This document shows, piece after piece, positions 2,977-25,801 of a stretch of 27,633 nucleotides of DNA. Numbering within the stretch: the first letter of the stretch is position 1; each line of letters opens with the position of its first letter. The notes below the pieces were generated by a model. It ran no database searches. It had not been told where the DNA came from and saw nothing but the letters and a program-made list of their open reading frames with translations. Source of the stretch: a virus; IMG/VR virus record IMGVR_UViG_3300046836_000242, positions 1 through 27,633 of that record. One strand, given 5' to 3'. The position numbers and the translations under genes are program-made.

Positions 2977-4184
2977 TCCTTCACCGGAGGCGGTAATTTG
3001 CGCATGTGGTGGATGATCTGCTTGCGGGAATGAACGATGAGCCGGTCGATCCAGTCGTGGCCCTTGTCGAAGTCGCCACTGCCGATGCGATGAACATCCT
3101 CCGGCGGCACGATGACTTCGCCCGGCGACACCATGGTCCGGATACCGTTCGCCGCCCCGCCTCGTGCCATGTGCGGCATCCTCGGGGGCGAACTCAGCTT
3201 CGGCCCGCGCGACGGCACCCGAGGCAGTGAAAGCCCGAACGGCCCTGTGCTCAGCGCGTGCTGGAGGTTGGCAGCCCCTGCCGAGGTGTTCCCCTGTCCC
3301 CAGCCACTGACCACATCGGCGGGTATGACGTGCGAGTGGGGTGCGAGGTTCATCGGGACTGCATCCGCCCGGCCGCCGGTTGTACCGGGGATCAGGCCAG
3401 ATGGCGCACGGTCCATGCCCGACGCTTCCCGCCTGATCCACCATGGGGTCTCACCCATGGGAGGCGCCGAACCACCGCTGGCCCGCCTGATAGCACCGCC
3501 CCTAGCGTCATCTTGCGGATCAGGTGGGACCGTCGTGCGTTGACCTAAACCGCTAGTTTGTCCACGCCAAACTTCATTGGCATCGAACGAGAGCGGCGCT
3601 ACCGTCTGCATATTCGGATCGGTATTGGGATTTCCGGTTCTCTCCCGGGCCATATAGGGGTGCCAGCCACCATACCGCTCCTCATCCAGCAGCTCGTCAT
3701 ATGGCTGCAAGCGCCTCCCGTTACGCTCTTCCAGCATAGCGCCTCCCGAGACTCGCCTGATGGCGCCCCCCTGACGCGAATTGCCGGCCGGAGCAAAGGT
3801 ATTGTCGGTCGTAAAGGAGCCGTTATCGACAGGCGCTGGATTGGAAGGAGGAAGAGGGGCCGGTCCCGACATGCCCGCAATCGGGATGCCGCGCTGCGCA
3901 AGACCCTGAAGCGCCTGGAGCGATCCCGGAGTCATCGCCCCACTGGTCAGGTCGAGATTGAAGGTTCCGCCCTGCGGCACAGGCACAAACCCGGAGCTGT
4001 TAACAGCAGGCGCCCCGGTCTGGTAAGTCGGCGCCTGCGGTGCTGCGCCGCCGGCTGCCCGGCGGTTCCGGCGCTGAATGTCGAGGGCTATGGCGATTGC
4101 CTGACGATGCGGTTTCCCAGCAGCTTGCTCCCGCCTTATGTTCTCACCGACCGCTGAGCGAGATGACGACTGGACAAGCGGCAT
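2973..4184 (-). CDS. Basic Gly-rich virion-associated protein with repeated GGAIRR motifs
   Basis: This 403-residue protein has recognisable ends and a low-complexity middle. Residues 1-42 (MPLVQSSSRSAVGENIRRE, then AGKPHRQAIAIALDIQRR) match a short helical N-terminal module that I know from many phage proteins of unknown function. The middle is rich in Pro, Gly and Asn and carries QGGAIRRVSGGA near residue 138 and RGGAIRRASGGS near residue 228, an internal repeat. From residue 280, HSHVIPADVVSGWGQGNTSAGAANLQ, and later MVSPGEVIVPPEDVHRIGSGDFDKGHD followed by a basic helix (RKQIIHHMRK), are conserved in feel. A clear ribosome-binding site (AAGGGGG, 7 bases before ATG) supports the start. A 69-base gap separates it from the upstream gene. 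A virion or assembly role is inferred from position only. Confidence 0.68.
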   Translation of the reverse strand: MPLVQSSSRSAVGENIRREQAAGKPHRQAIAIALDIQRRNRRAAGGAAPQAPTYQTGAPAVNSSGFVPVPQGGTFNLDLTSGAMTPGSLQALQGLAQRGIPIAGMSGPAPLPPSNPAPVDNGSFTTDNTFAPAGNSRQGGAIRRVSGGAMLEERNGRRLQPYDELLDEERYGGWHPYMARERTGNPNTDPNMQTVAPLSFDANEVWRGQTSGLGQRTTVPPDPQDDARGGAIRRASGGSAPPMGETPWWIRREASGMDRAPSGLIPGTTGGRADAVPMNLAPHSHVIPADVVSGWGQGNTSAGAANLQHALSTGPFGLSLPRVPSRGPKLSSPPRMPHMARGGAANGIRTMVSPGEVIVPPEDVHRIGSGDFDKGHDWIDRLIVHSRKQIIHHMRKLPPPVKE

Positions 4185-16020: not shown

Positions 16021-16671
16021 TCAGTTCACCTTCCCGCGTAGGGGGACAATGTTGGCTCGCTTGGCTTCATCTTTCTCAGCGTAGTCAGCCAGAGCGCGTA
16101 GGATCGAAGGGCTGTCCTTCGCATAGCCGAGTGCAGTATTACAGCCCAAACATAGAAGTCCCCGGATGTGCCCATCGCCATGATGATGGTCCACGCATAG
16201 CCAACGGACCGCTCCATTGCGCGTAGCAATTTCGGGTTGCTGACACGCCGCGCAAACGCCGCCCTGGGCGACATATAGGGCCATGTAGTCGGCCTCTGTC
16301 ATGCCGTAGAACTTCTTCCAGTTGGCTTTCCGATTGGACTCGGGGTGCGCATCACGAAAACGCTTGTTAGCCTCCTGTCGAGACCTAGCGTACCGCAAAT
16401 TGTCTATGCGGATATCCTGATCGTCGCCGTTCTCAAACTGGATGTAGCCAGGAGGCAATTCGCCGTTGACATAGAACCACGCCAATCTGGCCGCCTGGTA
16501 ACGCTGCCCATCAATCGAAATAACCCGACCGCCTCGCTGTACATCACCAGCGGGCCGATCCATATGGCGCCCCTGCTTCGATTCCAGCCACATGAAGATG
16601 CCGGTAGCAGGATCGTAACTCAGCAACTCCCTCAACCGCACCTGTGTCAATTCTGGCCGCGTCTTACCCAT
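16021..16671 (-). CDS. Endonuclease VII-type nuclease with degenerate HNH_3-like N-terminal domain
   Basis: From ATG 16671 this gene encodes 216 residues. The frame is open upstream, but the promoter at 16703-16731 would start transcripts near 16697, and GAGG precedes the codons at 16677 and 16671, so one of these is the start. Residues 8-100 match an HNH_3 homing nuclease layout (LRELLSYDPATGIFMW, ARLAWFYVNGELPPGY, NLRYARSRQEAN), but the catalytic DH is replaced (IQFENGD), so this half probably only binds DNA. Residues 137-200 are a full recombination endonuclease VII domain: CAAC (140-143), VDHHHGDGHIRGLLCLGC (160-177) and NTALGYAKDS, with both zinc pairs and the DH intact. Such enzymes cut branched DNA or act as homing nucleases. 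The gene sits between capsid genes and ends one base before the next gene. Confidence 0.85.
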   Translation of the reverse strand: MGKTRPELTQVRLRELLSYDPATGIFMWLESKQGRHMDRPAGDVQRGGRVISIDGQRYQAARLAWFYVNGELPPGYIQFENGDDQDIRIDNLRYARSRQEANKRFRDAHPESNRKANWKKFYGMTEADYMALYVAQGGVCAACQQPEIATRNGAVRWLCVDHHHGDGHIRGLLCLGCNTALGYAKDSPSILRALADYAEKDEAKRANIVPLRGKVN

Positions 16672-16702
16672 TTCCATGAACCTCATGTCACTGAAGTTCA
16701 GG

Positions 16703-16731
16703 ATTATACCGCGGACAGCTAAATCGTTCAA
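16703..16731 (-). promoter_or_regulatory. Strong sigma-70-like promoter for the endonuclease VII gene
   Basis: Read on the minus strand, TTGAAC (16726-16731) and a perfect TATAAT (16703-16708) are 17 bases apart. The surrounding DNA is AT-rich for this window: 26 of 60 bases are G or C at 16741-16800. Transcription would start near 16697, just before the GAGG and ATG codons of the nuclease gene. This lets the nuclease be made independently of the capsid transcript. Confidence 0.7.
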
Positions 16732-16797
16732 GCACAAATCATCACGGCGCCGATTTTTGTCAGCTTGTATGTTTGTGGTAAAGTTCATCGCGTTCAA

Positions 16798-16821
16798 CCT
16801 GAAATCCCCAATGATTTCAAG
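16798..16821 (-). repeat. Hairpin overlapping the major capsid stop codon
   Basis: A 9-base inverted repeat (CTTGAAATC and GATTTCAGG on the minus strand, one G-U pair) surrounds a 6-base loop. It covers the TGA stop of the capsid gene. No T-run follows, so it is not a classical terminator. It may protect the 3' end of the capsid message or reduce read-through into the nuclease gene. Confidence 0.5.
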
Positions 16822-17728
16822 TTGTTGGAGTGTTGCCGTAGATACAGAGGGGGTCGGAGTAGCCGACGTAGTAGCGTTGATAACCCTTGACAAGAAGATT
16901 GTCGGTGATGAAGTCAACCTCCATGCTCATCTCGAACGGCTCGCGCTCCAGGAAGATCAGGCCGTCGATCGTGGTCTGCACGAACCACCATGGCGCGTTG
17001 GTCAGGAAGTCCATCACCTCGTACTTCTCGGGCAGCGAGCCAGTGGCCTGCAACGCCGAGATGTCGTTGTCGCCAGTGCCAGGCCGGAGCGGCGTATGGA
17101 TCAGTCTCGCCGCCACCCACTCGTTGTTCGGATGAACGATCATCTTCCGGCCGCGGGCGAAAATCTTCTTGCCGGCCTGATCCTTGAAGTTGGTACGCAC
17201 CGAAGTCAGCGCCGTCAGCAATGAGCCTTCATTGAGGTCCTGCTGCGTGGTCGGCGTGTTGGCAATCGTGCCACCGTCGATGGGATGCGAGGCCGAGAGA
17301 AGTGCCACGCCATCGCCGCCGATGTTCGGATTGTAGGTGCTGGCCGTGTTGAGCACATTCGCGGTGTAGATTTCCTCAGTCTGCTCGAACGACTTCTGAA
17401 GGTCGAGGTTCGAGGCCGGGAACTGCTGCTCGTAGAGATTGTCCGCGATGGCCTTGCGGGTGATGGCATAGCCAAGCCCCACCTCGAAAGCCTCGTGGTT
17501 GTAGATGAACCGCTCGCCCGCGTTGTTGTCCATCTGCGTGGCGCCGCCCTCGAACTTGAGCTGCGCGAGAGAAAGCATACGGACGACAGCGGTGCGCTCG
17601 ACACCCATTTTCGACACGCCGCGCATGAATACCTTCGGCCATTGCCGGGGGATCATCTTGTAGCGGCCTTCGATGCCTCTGAGACCGGGACGGGTCAGGT
17701 CGTAGAGGGCGGCGACATTGACAGCCAT
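16817..17728 (-). CDS. Major capsid protein, HK97-fold, Mu gpT-like
   Basis: This 303-residue protein forms the head shell. The N-terminus (MAVNVAALYDLTRPGLRGIEG) and the central stretch are characteristic: FEVGLGYAITRKAIADNLYE, LQKSFEQTEEIYTANVLNTA, then GGDGVALLSASHPIDGG. This last pattern (LF..SHP..GG) is a hallmark of Mu gpT-like and related HK97-fold capsid proteins. The end contains FEMSMEVDFITDNLLVKGYQRYYVGY. It is shorter than many HK97-type capsid proteins, and no N-terminal propeptide is evident, which fits a separate scaffold. A strong ribosome-binding site (AGGAGG, 8 bases before ATG) fits high expression. It is 13 bases after the decoration-type gene and is followed by a hairpin and then by the inserted nuclease gene. 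Confidence 0.92.
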   Translation of the reverse strand: MAVNVAALYDLTRPGLRGIEGRYKMIPRQWPKVFMRGVSKMGVERTAVVRMLSLAQLKFEGGATQMDNNAGERFIYNHEAFEVGLGYAITRKAIADNLYEQQFPASNLDLQKSFEQTEEIYTANVLNTASTYNPNIGGDGVALLSASHPIDGGTIANTPTTQQDLNEGSLLTALTSVRTNFKDQAGKKIFARGRKMIVHPNNEWVAARLIHTPLRPGTGDNDISALQATGSLPEKYEVMDFLTNAPWWFVQTTIDGLIFLEREPFEMSMEVDFITDNLLVKGYQRYYVGYSDPLCIYGNTPTT

Positions 17729-19298: not shown

Positions 19299-20291
19299 TC
19301 ATCTGCGACGGTGCGGCAAATCGCCAGAACGGCGAAGCTCAGCTTCCTCGGCGGCATAATCAGCCGGGTCAACCCCCATCCACTCCGCCACACGCTTCTG
19401 CTCCGGCGTAATGTAGGTGTCTCCCTGCCGCAGCGTCCGCCCTGTCGGTCCCGGCGCCTCCCGGCTCGGTGGTGCGGACGGCGGCGCGGAACTCTCCGAC
19501 CGGCGAGGCGGCGTCGGCGCGGCCGGCTGTGATGGCTCGGTCATGCCGGCCTGCTCCTCGATGAAACGAAAATACTCAGGACTATCGGCCGCAATCCCCT
19601 TGCCTCGCGCAAGAGCATCGGCACCCGTCACCATGTTGAAGAACGACTGGTCCGTGAAGAACCGATCGTTCTTCCGCAGCCAGTCCTGCGTGGCCGGCGT
19701 GCGCGTCGCCATGAACTGCGACCGCGGCGCCCCTACCGTTGTCCACTCATTCGGCGCCGCTGGAGGCTCAACTCGCGCCGGTTCACGCAGCCGCGTGCCA
19801 CGGTCGGCCTCGAACGCCTGCTTGCCAGCGTTGAGGCTTACCCGCTCGCCGCCGATCTCGCCCAGCCGCGTGTTGATATCCGCAATACGGTCCCAGTCAC
19901 CGGCATCGCCAGCCGACTTCAGTTCACCCCTCAGCCGCTGCTGCTCGCTTTCCAACGCCTCCAGCGAACTCGTAAGCGTCCGGTAATCCGCCTCCGCCGC
20001 GTTCTCCCGTTGCCGTTGCAACTCGGTGCTGGCGTGGCGCGCCTGGACTTCAGCCTGCCCGGCCCGCGCCTCTGCCGCCGTTCGCTGCCGCTGCAACTCC
20101 TCGTTCTGCCGCCGAAGCTGAGCCGCAACCTCTGCCGCATCATCAGCGGCACTTTCCCGCTGCGGTGGCTGCCTCTCCGGCTCTGGCGCCGCTTCCGGCA
20201 GCATATTCGGCGGCAAACTGCCCTCGCGTCGCGCGAGAATATCCGCGATGCCAGGGCCGTCCCGATCCGGGACTGTCTGTGTTTCGCTCAT
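19299..20291 (-). CDS. Scaffold candidate: coiled-coil head assembly protein
   Basis: This 330-residue protein has an acidic, Pro-rich start, a long predicted coiled coil at about residues 50-170 (AAQLRRQNEELQRQRTAAEA, LTSSLEALESEQQRLRGEL), a conserved-looking helix at 193-250 (FMATRTPATQDWLRKNDRFF, NMVTGADALARGKGIAAD, SPEYFRFIEEQAG), a Pro/Ser-rich linker, and a C-terminal helix at 293-316 (YITPEQKRVAEWMGVDPADY). This layout is typical of phage scaffolding proteins, which fill the prohead and leave before packaging, and it lies upstream of the capsid gene as expected. No protease motif is visible. The start overlaps the GroES-like gene by one base (TGATG). Confidence 0.74.
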   Translation of the reverse strand: MSETQTVPDRDGPGIADILARREGSLPPNMLPEAAPEPERQPPQRESAADDAAEVAAQLRRQNEELQRQRTAAEARAGQAEVQARHASTELQRQRENAAEADYRTLTSSLEALESEQQRLRGELKSAGDAGDWDRIADINTRLGEIGGERVSLNAGKQAFEADRGTRLREPARVEPPAAPNEWTTVGAPRSQFMATRTPATQDWLRKNDRFFTDQSFFNMVTGADALARGKGIAADSPEYFRFIEEQAGMTEPSQPAAPTPPRRSESSAPPSAPPSREAPGPTGRTLRQGDTYITPEQKRVAEWMGVDPADYAAEEAELRRSGDLPHRRR

Positions 20292-20764
20292 CAGAACACC
20301 ATGTCCGGCCGATCAAGGATCGCATAGATCGACTTCTCGTTCTCCAGCATGACGCACTCATGCAGCCATGCCTCGACGCGAAAACCCGACCCCTTCCGGA
20401 ACAGCACCCAATCCCCAACCTCACACCGATCTTCGGCCACGAACTCGATGTCCGGGTTCTTCGCGTAGCAGTGCGGCCCCATCTTCACCACGAGCGCCGA
20501 TACACCCTGCCACTTGTTCTCATCCTTGGTCTGGTCCGGCCGGTGGATCAGCAACCCGCCCTCGCTCCGATACTCCTCATCAGTCGCCCAGATCGCCACC
20601 AGAATCCGGTTCAGCGGCACGCGGATGTCCGAGAGGTCGCCCAGCTTGTTCAGGATGCGCCGCTTCTCCGCCTCGAAAAAACGCTCCTGATCGCGGACGT
20701 ACCCCATCGTGCGCGTCGGTCGCACGATCTCCATCTTCGGCTTTGCCTTGGCAATGACGTTCAT
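20291..20764 (-). CDS. GroES-like co-chaperonin domain protein
   Basis: This 157-residue protein has a GroES/Cpn10-like core at about residues 49-150: PLNRILVAIWATDEE, then SEGGLLIHRP (the mobile-loop tripeptide position, LLI after GG), GVSALVVKMGP, VGDWVLFRKGSG, and a last strand (SIYAILD). This order (P...R..V, GG-hydrophobic, G.V..VG.G, VGD.V.F..G) is that of bacterial GroES. The N-terminal 48 residues are an extra basic helix-rich part. Phages such as T4 (gp31) use a GroES-like protein so that the host GroEL chamber can fold the capsid protein. It lies directly before the scaffold and three genes before the capsid gene. A head-closure fold is the alternative, but the GroES pattern is quite specific. 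Confidence 0.7.
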   Translation of the reverse strand: MNVIAKAKPKMEIVRPTRTMGYVRDQERFFEAEKRRILNKLGDLSDIRVPLNRILVAIWATDEEYRSEGGLLIHRPDQTKDENKWQGVSALVVKMGPHCYAKNPDIEFVAEDRCEVGDWVLFRKGSGFRVEAWLHECVMLENEKSIYAILDRPDMVF

Positions 20765-20979
20765 TATCCCCTCTTGGGTTCGGCGTTCATCTCAGCTTGG
20801 ATGTCTTCGCTCCACGACAGCACGTCGCGCAGCGCCCGGAGGTACTCAACTCGGCCCTTGTAATCCACGGCATCACTGGCCAGGCCATCAACCAGTGCCG
20901 CCGCATTGTTCTCGTACTGCTGACTGATCTTGGCGTGCAGCGCGCCTCGAAACTGGCGGTCCGAGAAGGTGGGCGTCAT
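20764..20979 (-). CDS. Small helical phage protein
   Basis: This 71-residue protein is largely helical: FSDRQFRGALHAKISQQYEN, NAAALVDGLASDAVDYKGR and VEYLRALRDVLSWSEDIQAE. No motif or membrane segment is visible. It shares 4 bases with the upstream gene (ATGA) and one with the GroES-like gene (TAATG), so it is part of the coupled head transcript. Small helical proteins in this place are commonly assembly factors, but no function can be given. It might pair with the equally helical protein encoded just upstream. Confidence 0.62.
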   Translation of the reverse strand: MTPTFSDRQFRGALHAKISQQYENNAAALVDGLASDAVDYKGRVEYLRALRDVLSWSEDIQAEMNAEPKRG

Positions 20980-21221
20980 ATCGCCATCGCCAACCGCATA
21001 TACCGCGTGTGCATCTCCGCATGACGAAGCCCCACCTCGCCAACCTCCGCACCGGACGCAGCCAGCGCCGCACGTGCGAGCTGGTGGTCCAGCAGCTTCA
21101 GGATTTCGTAATGCTCCGGCGCAATCTTGTCAGCCAGCAGCATCAACAGCAGATTGGTCTTCGTACACGCATCGTACGATCCGCGATCCGGCGTGAAGCC
21201 AAGTTCTTCCTCGACGGTCAT
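20976..21221 (-). CDS. Small phage protein following the repeat-flanked cassette
   Basis: This 81-residue helical protein begins MTVEEELGFTPDRGSYDACT, continues KTNLLLMLLADKIAPEHYEI, LKLLDHQLARAALAASGAE, and ends with a helix (LRHAEMHTRYMRLAMA). Its start lies within a direct repeat (21216-21246) that is also found at the start of the next gene upstream; both proteins open MT.EEL or MT-EEE, so the first codons belong to the repeat unit. It overlaps both neighbours by 4 bases. The family is not recognised. Confidence 0.62.
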   Translation of the reverse strand: MTVEEELGFTPDRGSYDACTKTNLLLMLLADKIAPEHYEILKLLDHQLARAALAASGAEVGEVGLRHAEMHTRYMRLAMAI

Positions 21222-21246
21222 CGCTCAACCATCCGTATCTTCTGCA
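21216..21246. repeat. Direct repeat copy A at the cassette gene's 3' end
   Basis: This 31-base sequence differs from the copy at 21833-21863 by one base. It encodes the last residues of the upstream gene (RMVER), its stop, and the start codon of the following gene. Together the two copies bracket exactly one gene. Confidence 0.85.
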
Positions 21247-21838
21247 CAGGCTGTTCTGCGCTCCCAAAAACATTGTCCGCCAGCATCTCGGCAACATTAC
21301 GATCTACCTTGCCATCGTAACCGATACGCAGACGGCTATAGACAAGCCAATGGAGCCTCGTCGAACCAAATGGAACGTTACCTTGGATTTCCGGCCGATC
21401 CCGCCACCAGAGAACGTCACCAGGATTGGCTGAAACATAATCTAGAAGTCGCTGCCGCCATACTGAGATGGCTTCCTCTACCGTATGATGACAAAAAGCC
21501 CCACGATCGAACGATGCAATCTCCACGTAGCACGCGCCATCCGGCGCCAGCGGACCGGAAGGTCCCATACAGGAAAACGGAAGACACCGTTCCAGCTCAA
21601 TGATCGCTGCCAAAAGCGCGATCTCGGCGAACTGCTGTCTACTGCTAAGTTCAGCTTCCGCAAGTCCACGAGCCGCACGGTATTCTGGCGTTCTCTTGAA
21701 CCAATTGTCCGTAACCGGGTCATGTTCCCACGCTGGATCGCCTTGAAGATCGGCCAACGAGAAAAGTCCGTCCTGGACCTGGTGGCGTGTCACAACCCCT
21801 TGGTTGATGATTGCCTCGATCAGTTCCTCTCTGGTCAT
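21218..21838 (-). CDS. Cassette gene of unknown function flanked by direct repeats
   Basis: This 206-residue protein has a helical start (MTREELIEAIINQGVVTRHQ), WEHDPVTDNWFKRTPEYRAA, a helix (FAEIALLAAIIELERCLPF), a Cys/His-containing middle (DGACYVEIASFDRGAFCHH, no clear metal motif) and a Trp-rich end (VLWWRDRPEIQGN, LHWLVYSRLRIGYDG). I cannot place it in a family. Its start and its last residues (QKIRMVER) lie in two nearly identical 31-base repeats, so deleting the unit would leave a perfect junction of the neighbours. Two sampled 60-base blocks inside it have 32 G/C each, below the neighbouring head genes. It looks like an acquired single-gene insert in the late operon. Both ends use ATGA overlaps. 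Confidence 0.6.
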   Translation of the reverse strand: MTREELIEAIINQGVVTRHQVQDGLFSLADLQGDPAWEHDPVTDNWFKRTPEYRAARGLAEAELSSRQQFAEIALLAAIIELERCLPFSCMGPSGPLAPDGACYVEIASFDRGAFCHHTVEEAISVWRQRLLDYVSANPGDVLWWRDRPEIQGNVPFGSTRLHWLVYSRLRIGYDGKVDRNVAEMLADNVFGSAEQPVQKIRMVER

Positions 21839-21863
21839 CGCTCAACCATCCGTGTCTTCTGCA
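21833..21863. repeat. Direct repeat copy B at the cassette gene's 5' end
   Basis: This is the second copy of the 31-base repeat at 21216-21246 (30 of 31 identical). It spans the end of the Pro/Gly-rich gene (KTRMVER), its stop and the start codon of the cassette gene. Confidence 0.85.
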
Positions 21864-22401
21864 ATCGCCCCTCGCCCGACATCGCGCCCGCCGTCATCTT
21901 CACCTCGCCACCGCGCTTCCGCATCGGCATCCCCGGCGGCATCCCACCAGGCGGCATCCCAGGCCCCGGTCCCATGCCCGCAACCGGCGGCCGTGGTGGC
22001 ATCCCCGGCGGCATCCCCGGCGGCATCCCCGGCGGTCCGCCAGGCGGCATTCCTCCCGGCGCCGCACCCGCAGGCACCGGCACCGGAACAGGCTGACGCA
22101 CCGGCACCGGCACAGGATGCCCTTCGCCGCCGCCACCCATCACGATGTTGACCGTCGTCCCCTTGTGGTGCTTCCGGTCCAGCCGGCCGCCGCGAGCGCG
22201 CTTGCCCTCGACCTTGCCGCCATGCTTCAGCTTGGTCTCCTTCTCACCCTTGTGCATGTGCTTCTCATGCGCATGAACGCCGTGAGCAACCAGCTTCTTG
22301 TCCTCGGCCTCGTCGTTCTCCGGCACATGGCCGCCAAACCGACGCTGCCGCGCCTTGTGAGACTCATGCGCTTCCTCGCGCGCCGCATGGTAATCAGCCA
22401 T
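21835..22401 (-). CDS. His-rich basic protein with Pro/Gly/Met collagen-like repeats
   Basis: This protein has 188 residues from ATG 22401 (8-base overlap with the upstream gene). The first 45 residues are charged and helical (YHAAREEAHESHKARQRR), followed by a His-rich part (VAHGVHAHEKHMHKGEKE), then KHGGKVEGKRARGGRLDRKH, a short beta piece (TTVNIVMGGGG), Pro-Val repeats (VPVPVRQPVPVPVP) and PGMPP-type repeats (PGGPPGMPPGMPPGMPP). It ends MRKRGGEVKMTAG and RMVER. The KHGGKV, KRARGG and RLDR motifs are shared with the gene at 15089-14661, so they are distant relatives or share a binding role. Its low complexity suggests a flexible linker in the virion. The function is unknown. Confidence 0.65.
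   Translation of the reverse strand: MADYHAAREEAHESHKARQRRFGGHVPENDEAEDKKLVAHGVHAHEKHMHKGEKETKLKHGGKVEGKRARGGRLDRKHHKGTTVNIVMGGGGEGHPVPVPVRQPVPVPVPAGAAPGGMPPGGPPGMPPGMPPGMPPRPPVAGMGPGPGMPPGGMPPGMPMRKRGGEVKMTAGAMSGEGRLQKTRMVER
21998..22033. repeat. Three perfect 12-base tandem copies
   Basis: The unit GGCATCCCCGGC is repeated three times without change and encodes the PGMPPGMPPGMP part of the protein at 22401-21835. Degenerate copies surround it, from about 21926 to 22080. The number of units is likely to vary between related phages by slippage. Confidence 0.85.
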
Positions 22402-22666
22402 CTGTTCTGTCCCTTTCCTTCGCAGCGCGGTACTCCATACGCCCGGCAAATTCCTCAAAGAACCTGCCGATCGGCTCAATATGAAGCGGAGCATTCTCCA
22501 TATGGTCGTACATTCCATCGCCCCGAACCGTGACCAAAAGGCCGGCAGACTGCGGAAATTCCCTCAGCGTAAGACGCTCGATCGTATGCCCCTTCGGAAG
22601 CGCAAGAAACCGCGCAAGCTCTTCGAGACTGATCGACAGAATGCCGCATCCCTTTCCGTCAGCCAT
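22394..22666 (-). CDS. Small phage protein of unknown function
   Basis: This protein has 90 residues from ATG 22666, chosen over a longer frame because it gives the short overlap (8 bases) seen along this operon. It reads MADGKGCGILSISLEELARF, LALPKGHTIERLTLREFPQS, AGLLVTVRGDGMYDH, then IEPIGRFFEEFAGRMEYRA. A helix, strand and strand-helix order is visible with a beta hairpin around LLVTVRGDG. It has no known motif. It sits in the group of small genes between portal and scaffold, where accessory packaging and head-assembly proteins are often found. Confidence 0.6.
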   Translation of the reverse strand: MADGKGCGILSISLEELARFLALPKGHTIERLTLREFPQSAGLLVTVRGDGMYDHMENAPLHIEPIGRFFEEFAGRMEYRAAKERDRTDG

Positions 22667-22832
22667 TGGTGTTCTCCTTCTTGTCCATCGGCGCAAAACT
22701 CCGGGCCAGTAGACGATCAAGGTGCGCTTTCTGCTCTCCAGTTACAGTCCCGATCGGGATCACGATCTTTTCCGCATCCGCCGGCACTTCCGCCGCGAAC
22801 GTCTTCAGCCACTCAGGCCAAAAATCGGTCAT
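22659..22832 (-). CDS. Very small phage protein
   Basis: This protein has 57 residues from ATG 22832, whose codon shares ATGA with the stop of the zinc-ribbon gene; the longer open frame upstream is a shadow of that gene. It reads MTDFWPEWLKTFAAEVPADA, EKIVIPIGTVTGEQKAHLDR, then LLARSFAPMDKKENTNG. A Trp-rich N-terminal helix, a short strand and a helix can be seen. No family is recognised. Its coupling to both neighbours supports that it is a real gene. Confidence 0.58.
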   Translation of the reverse strand: MTDFWPEWLKTFAAEVPADAEKIVIPIGTVTGEQKAHLDRLLARSFAPMDKKENTNG

Positions 22833-23053
22833 TGCACGGTGCCCAGCTCGCCGTAGTATTCGTCCAACACAATCACCTCGCCATCTGCCGGATGCACCCA
22901 TCTGCCATTGCCGCAATTCGGGCAACCAACCCCGTAGGGCAGGCGCTCGCTGCAAGCCGCTATCCTTGTTTGGCCAAATCGGAATTTCGAGTTGCAGGCC
23001 ATACATACCCACTGTCGCTCCATGATGTCAGGAGTCATGTCAGATTTGCTCAT
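22829..23053 (-). CDS. Zinc-ribbon small protein
   Basis: This protein has 74 residues from ATG 23053, set by the ATGA overlap with the upstream gene. It contains CMAC at 17-20 and CPNC at 44-47, two knuckles typical of a zinc ribbon, with an extra Cys34. Strand segments lie between them, and an acidic tail (VHPADGEVIVLDEYYGELG) follows. Zinc ribbons of this kind bind nucleic acid or protein partners; in phage late operons they may act in transcription or assembly. It lies directly after the small gene behind the portal. No partner can be named. Confidence 0.7.
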   Translation of the reverse strand: MSKSDMTPDIMERQWVCMACNSKFRFGQTRIAACSERLPYGVGCPNCGNGRWVHPADGEVIVLDEYYGELGTVQ

Positions 23054-23298
23054 GGGAACTTCCATCCCCGTCGTGGGCATCCAAGCCCTTGGCATGTCGC
23101 TTCCGCTGTGGGGGGACAGATACATCCGCGCGACTGTTGGTCTGGTGAACCCATCGGTCTCAGCGGCCCACAAATGCGCAGCGTGTATAAAGTATCGTCC
23201 TTAATGCCAATGACTTCATTGATCGCGACACCATCCGGCAAACAGACAGGAACCAGAACCATGATGTCCGGGGCCGTTTTGTCGGTCAGCGAAGTCAC
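23050..23298 (-). CDS. Small Cys-containing phage protein behind the portal
   Basis: This 82-residue protein starts at GTG 23298, which overlaps the portal stop by 4 bases (GTGA). It reads MTSLTDKTAPDIMVLVPVCL, PDGVAINEVIGIKDDTLYTL, RICGPLRPMGSP, and ends with a Cys/Gly/Pro-rich tail (SRGCICPPTAEATCQGLGCP). The N-terminal half looks like a small beta domain; the tail has four cysteines in C.C and C...C spacing that might bind metal. It shares the coupling pattern of the operon. The family is unknown, and a shadow of neighbouring coding cannot be fully excluded. Confidence 0.55.
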   Translation of the reverse strand: MTSLTDKTAPDIMVLVPVCLPDGVAINEVIGIKDDTLYTLRICGPLRPMGSPDQQSRGCICPPTAEATCQGLGCPRRGWKFP

Positions 23299-25592
23299 TT
23301 CTTCTCCCCCTGAGCCAGAACCGGAGCCGTCGCCGCCTGATGCACCGCCAACCCAGCCTCGTGCTGCTGCTGCTGGCCAGCCAATCCCGCCTCGTGCGCT
23401 CGCTGCTGCTCTGCCTCCGCCGCATCCGCATGGTGCTCAACGCCCGCCTGCACCATCCCCGCACCCGTCTTCATCGCCTCGGTCCGCTCGCGCATCGTAG
23501 CAATCGCCAGATGCGACGCCCGGTCCGCCGCGCGCTCCTGGTTGTCCACAACCGTCGCCGCCGCCTTCTCCTGCCGGTCAGCCTGCTTGTCGGAGAACTC
23601 CGCCCCCGTCTGCTGAACCTCAGCCCCAGCCTTCGCCGCCTGCGCCCGAGCATTCGTCGCCTGCGCCTGCGCCAGCTCAGCCTTCGCCGCGTTCAGTCCA
23701 GGGTCCTGCGCCGCGCCACCCTTCCCCTGCGAGGCCGCCGCCTGCTTCTGCGCAATCGCCGCCGCATCGTCCAGAATCGCCTCCGGGTCCGGCACCCCAA
23801 TCATCCGCATCAGCCGCAAAGCCGTATCCCGCAGCTTGAACAGCATCGGCGCCGCCTGCGCCAACTCGAACAACGCCCCGGCAATCGCCACACGCTGCAC
23901 CTGGCTCGACGTGTTCGGGTCAGCCATCGGCACCAGATTGCAGTTCCCCAGCGCTTGCACCAACTCTGGTTCCTGCCAACCCCGCGCTGGCCGTGCATTA
24001 TACCGCCACAGCGCCGAGGGGTTCTCCTTGAACCGGTCCCGCAAAAGCTGAAACTCCTCAGCCTGCGCCCGATGCAATCCCTTGAACACACCCTTCAGCG
24101 GCTTCACCGCCTGCTCGATCGCCGCCAGCATCGTCCCCACCGGCATGTTCGACCGCCCCTCACTCAACGGCGCCGATACCTCTCCACCCAATGCCTTCCC
24201 CGAATCCTCCAAATGCTGAATGAACCCCATGAACGCCGCATCCGGCGACCTGTACGGCAGGTTCATCACCACATCCGAAATCGGCTTGCCGCCCGTCTGG
24301 ATCGGCGCCAGCGAACCCGGCGCCACCCTGATCTCGTTCGTGATCTGACGCCCACCAACATCCGAGATCAACCCTCCCGGAAAGTTCGCGAACATCCCCG
24401 CATCCAGAAACTCACGGAACGCCGCCGTCAATGCCCGAACCGTGTTCCCCAATATGTGAAACAATCCAATGGGATAGAACCCCAGCCCATCTATATACGC
24501 ATACTTCACATATTCCCGCCGAGGCATCTTCAACTCATCGTCCTCAGCCCAGTTCCGCCGTATCGACAGAACCGTCCGGCTCGTCTCCTCAATCGTCACC
24601 TTGTACGGCCGATACGTCCCATCCCCAGCGCCATCCCCAACCACCTCCGGGTCCAGCCCCGTCGAACACTCGAAGATCGTGTGCGGATGGTCCGCCGCAA
24701 GCTGCGAGAACATCGTCAGCCCCTGCGCCCGCCTCTCAGCCTGCTCCAAGGCGTCCGCCTGCTCGGTCGGCTCCGTCAGCTCCACATCGCGATAAACGCC
24801 CGCCTTGATCATCCGCCGCAGCATCGCGTTCTGCATCTTGATCCGGTGCGTCACCCGACCCACCAGCGAAGCATTCTGAATATCCGTCGCCGAGTGATCC
24901 ACAATCAGGTCATTGATCTCGATCGACTCGCTCACCGGCCGCTTCCTAAGCGGGCAGTCGTAAACCTTCTTGAACCCACCACCGAACAACCCAACCCGGA
25001 ACGACATCCGCGTCGTGTCCGGATAATACTCCGTCGCCGTCACCGTCAGGTAATGGTTGAGGTCCTTCTCCAGCGAAGCCGCCAGATCGTCCTCCGTCAT
25101 CTCCTCAGCCTGGTTGTCCATCCCAACCGGCGCCTCGGTCTCATCGCTCCGCACCTTTACCGGACCGTCCGCCGGCAACATCTCCGCCACAAAGTCAGCC
25201 TGAAACCGGATCACCGCCTGCAACAGCAACGGATGGTCGTACGTCGCCATCCCCTCCAAAGGAGCCGCACCGTCATCCGCCGAAGCCCCCGACTTCTTCA
25301 GCCGAAGCCCCAGCATCTCCACCGCATCCGCCAGACCCTGCAACCATTCCCGACGCGATAGATCATCCGCCTGGATACCGCGCAGCAAATCGTCCGCTAG
25401 CACCGCCAGCGCAGCATCACTCATCTTCAGCGCCAGATTCGCCGTGTGCTTCCCATCATCCGCCTCAACCGGCGCCCGCCAGTTCGTCCGGATGATGATC
25501 CCGCCGTCCGGCGTCTCGATGTGCAGTCGCCCGCGTGCATCCAGCGTCCCAGGGCCATCGTCCGTTTCAACCTGGCGAGCGGTGCCGCTCAT
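23295..25592 (-). CDS. Portal protein
   Basis: This protein has 765 residues from ATG 25592, which shares ATGA with the stop of the upstream gene; a GTG 30 bases earlier is less consistent with that pattern. The core shows features of large podo-type portals: a start with beta-rich segments (GIIIRTNWRAP), a helix-rich section with YDHPLLLQAVIRFQADFVAE, FRVGLFGGGFKKVYDCPLRK, then KVTIEETSRTVLSIRRNW, YVKYAYIDGLGFYPIGLFHI and GGLISDVGGRQITNEIRV with an extended region of wing and stem type. The last 150 residues are a Gln/Ala-rich coiled coil (AKAELAQAQATNARAQAAKA, QQQHEAGLAVHQ), like the long barrel of P22-like portals. The portal is the DNA channel and the docking site for terminase and adaptors. 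It lies just after the terminase group. Confidence 0.88.
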   Translation of the reverse strand: MSGTARQVETDDGPGTLDARGRLHIETPDGGIIIRTNWRAPVEADDGKHTANLALKMSDAALAVLADDLLRGIQADDLSRREWLQGLADAVEMLGLRLKKSGASADDGAAPLEGMATYDHPLLLQAVIRFQADFVAEMLPADGPVKVRSDETEAPVGMDNQAEEMTEDDLAASLEKDLNHYLTVTATEYYPDTTRMSFRVGLFGGGFKKVYDCPLRKRPVSESIEINDLIVDHSATDIQNASLVGRVTHRIKMQNAMLRRMIKAGVYRDVELTEPTEQADALEQAERRAQGLTMFSQLAADHPHTIFECSTGLDPEVVGDGAGDGTYRPYKVTIEETSRTVLSIRRNWAEDDELKMPRREYVKYAYIDGLGFYPIGLFHILGNTVRALTAAFREFLDAGMFANFPGGLISDVGGRQITNEIRVAPGSLAPIQTGGKPISDVVMNLPYRSPDAAFMGFIQHLEDSGKALGGEVSAPLSEGRSNMPVGTMLAAIEQAVKPLKGVFKGLHRAQAEEFQLLRDRFKENPSALWRYNARPARGWQEPELVQALGNCNLVPMADPNTSSQVQRVAIAGALFELAQAAPMLFKLRDTALRLMRMIGVPDPEAILDDAAAIAQKQAAASQGKGGAAQDPGLNAAKAELAQAQATNARAQAAKAGAEVQQTGAEFSDKQADRQEKAAATVVDNQERAADRASHLAIATMRERTEAMKTGAGMVQAGVEHHADAAEAEQQRAHEAGLAGQQQQHEAGLAVHQAATAPVLAQGEKK

Positions 25593-25801
25593 GGCCGCGG
25601 CGTCCGGAGGGCAGCTCTCCACTCCGTAACAAAAACCTCGTAGTCCTCATTCAAAACCAGTCTCTCGGCGCTACCCACAAGCCGAATCTCCACCCCTCCC
25701 TCCAAACGAGGCCAAACAGCCATAACCCGCCGAAGATCAATCGAAACACGCCGAGTAGCAGTCGTGTACTCGTAAACCGTGCTGGCTGGCGGGTCGCTCA
25801 T
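25589..25801 (-). CDS. Small phage protein before the portal
   Basis: This 70-residue protein has alternating strands: STVYEYTTATRRVSIDLRRV, MAVWPRLEGGVEIRLVGSAE, RLVLNEDYEVFVTEWRAAL. It looks like a small beta-rich fold, perhaps a DNA- or protein-binding domain, and no motif is recognised. It overlaps the next upstream gene by 4 bases and the portal start by 4 bases. Coupling with the portal suggests a packaging or head function, which is inferred only. Confidence 0.62.
   Translation of the reverse strand: MSDPPASTVYEYTTATRRVSIDLRRVMAVWPRLEGGVEIRLVGSAERLVLNEDYEVFVTEWRAALRTPRP

Follow-up and report, generated by a model that had tools for sequence, protein, structure and literature searches.

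The stretch of DNA analysed here (the window) is a 27,633-base virus record, one metagenomic contig. Its minus strand carries a head operon made up of a terminase large subunit gene, an SU10-like portal gene (23295–25622), small genes, a gene for a Pro/Gly-rich protein (GP; 21835–22401, starting at the ATG that matches the GP start of the relative G002), a 206-aa gene (cass; 21218–21838), an 81-aa gene (g81; 20976–21221), a small 71-aa gene (g71; 20764–20979), a GroES-like gene (PHROG 3188; 20291–20764), the major head protein gene (16817–17728), and others. GP and g71 are the conserved upstream and downstream neighbours of a slot that holds cass and g81 in the window, and the GroES-like gene provides an anchor downstream of it. 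The portal, GroES-like and major head protein genes agree with the first-pass annotation, which had placed cass within a head operon. GroES is described among the core genes of HTVC023P-type phages (PMC9599517), and one phage of this type matches the portal and head proteins of the window.

Adjoining the major head protein gene, a single gene at 16021–16809 joins an HNH_3 match to an endonuclease VII match, and L013, L014 and L015 have similar sequences after their head protein genes. The interval between the portal and GP (22401–23294) contains several small ORFs and is a second variable spot of the operon; GP starts 10 nt past the portal stop in G002, and two other small ORFs occupy the interval in G004. 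Within this phage group, a Pro/Gly-rich stretch is common to the GP proteins, as is an SGEGRLEK-like C-terminal motif followed by a variable end.

Two direct repeats of 31 nt bracket cass, copy 1 at 21833–21863 and copy 2 at 21216–21246, both read on the minus strand and identical at 30/31 positions (36/40 for the extended repeat family). Each copy comprises the last eight codons of one gene, its TGA stop and the ATG of the next gene (ATGACC), with the genes meeting in 4-nt ATGA overlaps: copy 1 spans the end of GP and the start of cass, and copy 2 spans the end of cass and the start of g81. The lone difference between them is ACA in GP versus ATA in cass. With up to one mismatch allowed, no direct repeat in the window is longer than this pair; second in length is a 22-nt repeat inside the low-complexity GP gene, and the longest one-mismatch repeat in 100 first-order Markov resamples reached 22 nt at best (mean, 17.4 nt). 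The repeat pair is far beyond chance, and the coordinates and resampling together confirm the initial description of near-identical repeats running across a gene end, a stop and the next start. In all loci collected (1.56 Mb, overlaps included), these are the only two copies, and no unrelated genes ending in the same DNA were found in them; a search for the exact repeat pattern in other viral_contigs records gave no match. Around copy 2, the predicted fold was not markedly structured (z −0.75). The collected loci were also searched, on either strand, for further genes lying between repeats (22 nt or longer) that span a stop and a start. The sole further distinct case, a small gene in L044 (1468–1694) with 24-nt flanking repeats that carry an RBS-like sequence and a start, was not counted as support because its two genes look, by eye, like paralogues of the kind left by tandem duplication.

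The bracketed gene has no match in Pfam, PHROGs, NCBIfam or PADLOC, in line with the earlier remark that it belongs to no known family, and nuclease, transposase and integrase domains were absent from it in these four libraries. Comparison with the PDB yielded nothing convincing. No matches were obtained with cass, the portal or g81 as single-protein queries of viral_contigs, with cass, the L026 homologue or a related protein of L111 (see below) against phages, with the cass core against plasmids, or with cass alignments against genome_contigs. Similarly, g81 had no match in phages and no relative in the other loci examined. Structure prediction with AlphaFold2 was poor both for cass (pLDDT 48) and for the core domain (L111 protein leading; pLDDT 57), and when the latter model alone was passed to Foldseek, neither PDB nor BFVD contained a match at E ≤ 0.001. 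With a GC content of 54.4% and a GC3 of 53.4% (0.534, z −2.2), cass has the lowest GC3 of the 27 window genes examined; its homologues in G004 and L026 have GC3 values of 0.596 and 0.615, against 0.77–0.86 for portals (0.766 and 0.861 against the G004 and L026 copies). The low GC3 of cass is suggestive only, since the window has other genes of this kind, namely a 214-aa gene (0.556) and two small ORFs between the portal and GP (~0.6). A simple consensus scan detected no promoter-like sites by cass and three terminator-like sites, near the shuffled expectation (1.4 ± 1.4). The product of cass would most likely be a dispensable accessory protein.

Relatives were collected by a scan with the major head protein (six loci), a scan with the cass alignment (four loci, each on its own contig, of which one was already known) and two scans with portal alignments (best 80 loci each), so that the counts below describe a non-exhaustive sample. 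From 177 sequences, we retained the 52 rows in which GP and g71 were both detected with g71 on the plus strand. Several rows represented the same contig, and the 52 rows correspond to 42 records in 30 clusters at 95% identity over 400 nt; the contig map and gap values for this count were entered by hand from the loci table. Homologues of cass are present in G004 (also on contig L027) and in L026, which is 99.7% the same as L016 over 1,626 nt, and in both they lie between GP and g71. They are 34–42% identical to the window gene over aligned positions, and share with it a core of approximately residues 33–172 but not its N- and C-terminal parts.

Among the matches listed, cass thus occupies the slot in 3 of the 42 records with GP and g71 (the window, G004 and L026). 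These three belong to a near clade of eight records, whose other five members are closed at this junction (G002, G003, L029, L030 and L111). In G002, the closest of the listed relatives whose sequence covers the slot (portal identity 74–75%), GP ends in RMVE and its stop overlaps the g71 start by 4 nt; the other four records are likewise closed. Because L029, L030 and L111 cluster together at 95% identity, the closed members represent three distinct lineages. Cass is found in none of the 34 outer records among the matches listed, and GP and g71 lie within 20 nt of each other in 27 of them. The exceptions are L078, L085, L086, L163 and L164 (gaps of 104–147 nt), L153 (ambiguous g71 start) and L174, which has an HNH_3 gene in the slot. 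Hence the possibility raised at the outset, that all relatives might carry the gene, is contradicted by closed junctions in five of eight near records and by the lack of cass in all the outer ones listed. In the records of G002 and G004, the portal lies close to one contig end and the major head protein close to the opposite one, as though the cut had fallen between them in a circular or permuted genome.

In a portal tree of 18 records (made without L111, and with L003 scored as empty because its record has no cass match), well-supported branches force at least three gains or losses of cass. These data bear out the view that cass is a single-gene module gained or lost within a coupled operon, as relatives without it exist, the junctions consist of 4-nt overlaps and the tree requires at least three changes. 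With the closed outer records taken into account, three changes correspond either to three gains or to one gain and two losses, and the pairwise identities among the three copies (34, 42 and 32%) do not appear to separate repeated gain clearly from one gain followed by losses. One could accordingly envisage a single ancient gain that predates the splitting of the near clade, followed by loss in G002 and again in the branch of G003, L029, L030 and L111, with the repeat formed later by gene conversion between the two gene ends. All three copies do sit at the same junction downstream of GP, and this history also needs just three changes. However, the GC3 of cass is low in all three genomes, and gene conversion would require prior similarity between the two gene ends. 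In addition, the L026 core resembles that of the window more than that of G004, which conflicts with the portal tree, although this argument is weak because GroES and GP show a similar order. On balance, we consider a single ancient gain rather improbable.

A second type of gene has used the same slot. In L174, a distant relative, an HNH_3 gene (3228–3716; Pfam, 1.2e-10) lies between GP and g71 and overlaps both the GP end and the g71 start. Conversely, the cass core recurs at a second junction: L111 encodes a 123-aa protein (1705–2076) with this core (32.9% identity to cass, E 1.3e-6; HMM, 9.2e-8) between the terminase small subunit gene (terS) and a 107-aa gene (g107), and the same terS–g107 junction is closed in G003, whose 107-aa product is 93% identical. 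The GC3 of the gene for the 123-aa L111 protein (0.69, versus 0.68 for terL) is not low for its genome. In a search of 38 larger records with the cass core (E ≤ 0.1), two had a match, namely the record of L111 and G004, the latter with its known cass copy and a marginal match at E 0.018. Taken together, the patchy distribution, the three or more changes on the tree, the HNH gene in the same slot and the cass core at the L111 junction support the idea of a cassette.

An HNH_3 gene at one and the same junction, and the cass domain again at another, are what one might expect if a mobile element or homing gene had entered and duplicated its target. Yet cass matches no nuclease, transposase or integrase family, and flanking repeats were not found at the other occupied junctions, where the longest shared words are 8 (L026), 7 (G004), 6 (L111) and 10 nt (L174). 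Neither a nuclease-type domain nor a target duplication at each insertion was thus observed, and the repeat occurs in the window only; we regard such an origin as highly improbable.

The C-terminus of cass bears on how the repeat arose. Whereas VYSRL or its equivalent lies within a few residues of the end in the homologues, the window protein runs 34 residues further (21221–21322), and this extension terminates in QKIRMVER, a copy of the QKTRMVER with which GP ends. No cass homologue has a QKIRMVER-like end, and the 26 residues preceding the copied end resemble nothing else in the loci searched. Eight of eight compared codons (stop included) match between the two ends, for which the chance given the residues is ~0.003. 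Relative to the GP end of G002, both copies have three common substitutions and a 3-nt insertion (read by eye), which makes the copying more recent than the divergence from G002, barring later homogenisation of the two copies. The GP copy looks ancestral, as G002 has C at the single differing base, and copy 2 carries a derived T. The searches gave no donor for either g81 or the window cass, and the copying event is therefore a reconstruction from its result. Among the loci listed, no GP–g81–g71 or GP–cass–g71 intermediate sharing the GP end of the window was seen.

The first-pass annotation had also allowed that the repeats could reflect shared protein ends under selection, or by extension a selected translation signal, with no duplication of DNA. 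An SGEGRLEK-like motif is indeed conserved at the GP ends of many relatives. This motif, however, lies mostly upstream of the repeat, the match extends to codons at a level hardly expected from the residues, and such an end is present in no cass homologue. Selection as the source of the repeat therefore seems very doubtful.

The annotation had further suggested that cass may be gained or lost by recombination. In the strongest form of this idea, recombination between the repeats would regularly remove and restore the gene, giving presence and absence within a population. Near-identical 31-nt repeats do exist, as do relatives without cass, and excision would, on paper, join the neighbours with the same overlap. 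The downstream neighbour joined in this way, however, is g81, and because g81 is an 81-aa orphan with no relative found, the conserved neighbours of the slot are really GP and g71. The relatives that lack cass have the closed form GP–g71, also without g81, and so cannot be simple excision products. The predicted product, GP–g81–g71, is present in 0 of the 42 records among the matches listed. Moreover, gain or loss of cass in L026 and G004 needed no repeats, since the flanks there have none (8 and 7 nt shared at most), the exact repeat pattern occurs in no other viral contig, and the copy is younger than the split from G002. These results speak against the repeats as the cause of cass loss, and we consider a switch of this kind unlikely; the repeats could nevertheless permit later deletion of cass.

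Based on these findings, we think it probable that the GP–g71 junction is a reused landing site, which in the window holds cass and g81, and that the repeat is the scar of a GP end copied onto cass. We propose that single genes would enter the operon at stop/start overlaps. An entrant would need its own start to overlap the stop before it, and its own stop to overlap the start after it, and in the window lineage the second need would have been met by a copy of GP's own end. Ectopic recombination would have placed the GP 3′ end (eight codons, stop and ATGACC) onto the end of cass, which would thereby have gained a foreign C-terminus, and g81 would have received the same stop/start overlap as GP uses. 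This arrangement may have arisen through two crossovers, one within shared GP sequence and the other illegitimate, just inside the GP end; other routes are possible. The copied end would supply translational coupling to g81. Gene mosaicism is well known in phages, and what is described here is phage mosaicism with an unusual junction scar. A broader reading, which we put forward only tentatively, is that the stop/start junction acts as a portable adaptor: an entrant receives the last codons, stop and overlapping start of its upstream neighbour, and translation passes on. If so, junction grafting would be a general route for single genes into coupled operons without polar damage. The locus offers a base-level, relatively dated example of single-gene entry into a structural operon with predicted translational coupling, including occupied and closed forms of the junction, a second gene type in the slot and the same domain at a second junction. 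Should the copied end function as such an adaptor, this would account for the addition of genes at places where careless insertion would harm downstream head genes.

In a limited search of the open-access literature, we came across no report of an inserted gene with a copied stop/start junction; several known systems are similar in part. The ORFanage region of cyanophage S-PM2 consists of genes of unknown function, ~9.5 kb of which were lost at once, as described in PMC4503421, which also cites T4 mobile regulatory cassettes. As with cass, the phage can lose genes that have no known function; the difference is that a region of this size went in one event. The main text of PMC4503421 contains the word "repeat" 0 times. 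Start Associated Sequences of cluster K mycobacteriophages are described as 13-bp sequences repeated genome-wide near gene starts, for which a function in initiating translation has been proposed (PMC3203893). They resemble the present repeats, on this description, as short repeats at gene starts and differ in that each of the two 31-nt copies in the window takes in eight codons from the gene before it.

Free-standing HNH homing-type genes also occur in phage operons. The HNH_3 gene in the GP–g71 slot of L174 is similar to these, whereas cass matches no nuclease family. The T4-type mobile regulatory cassettes (PeSLs), reportedly described by Arbiol and colleagues in 2010, are said to be intergenic promoter/stem-loop elements repeated at many junctions. 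The likeness lies in a repeated sequence at gene boundaries that is tied to gene shuffling; the window repeat, by contrast, is coding, spans a stop and a start, occurs twice only, has no promoter-like site and lacks a marked fold (z −0.75). Finally, a phage moron is an extra gene between genes that are adjacent in relatives, with an odd base composition and its own promoter and terminator, and is expressed from the prophage. Cass is likewise extra between GP and g71, which are adjacent in five of eight near and 27 of 34 outer records listed, and its base composition is unlike that of its neighbours (lowest GC3 of 27 in the window, and low in G004 and L026). It differs from a moron in having no promoter-like site and terminators only near shuffled expectation in a simple consensus scan, and in lying inside a run of stop/start overlaps, with one end that is a copy of its neighbour's end.
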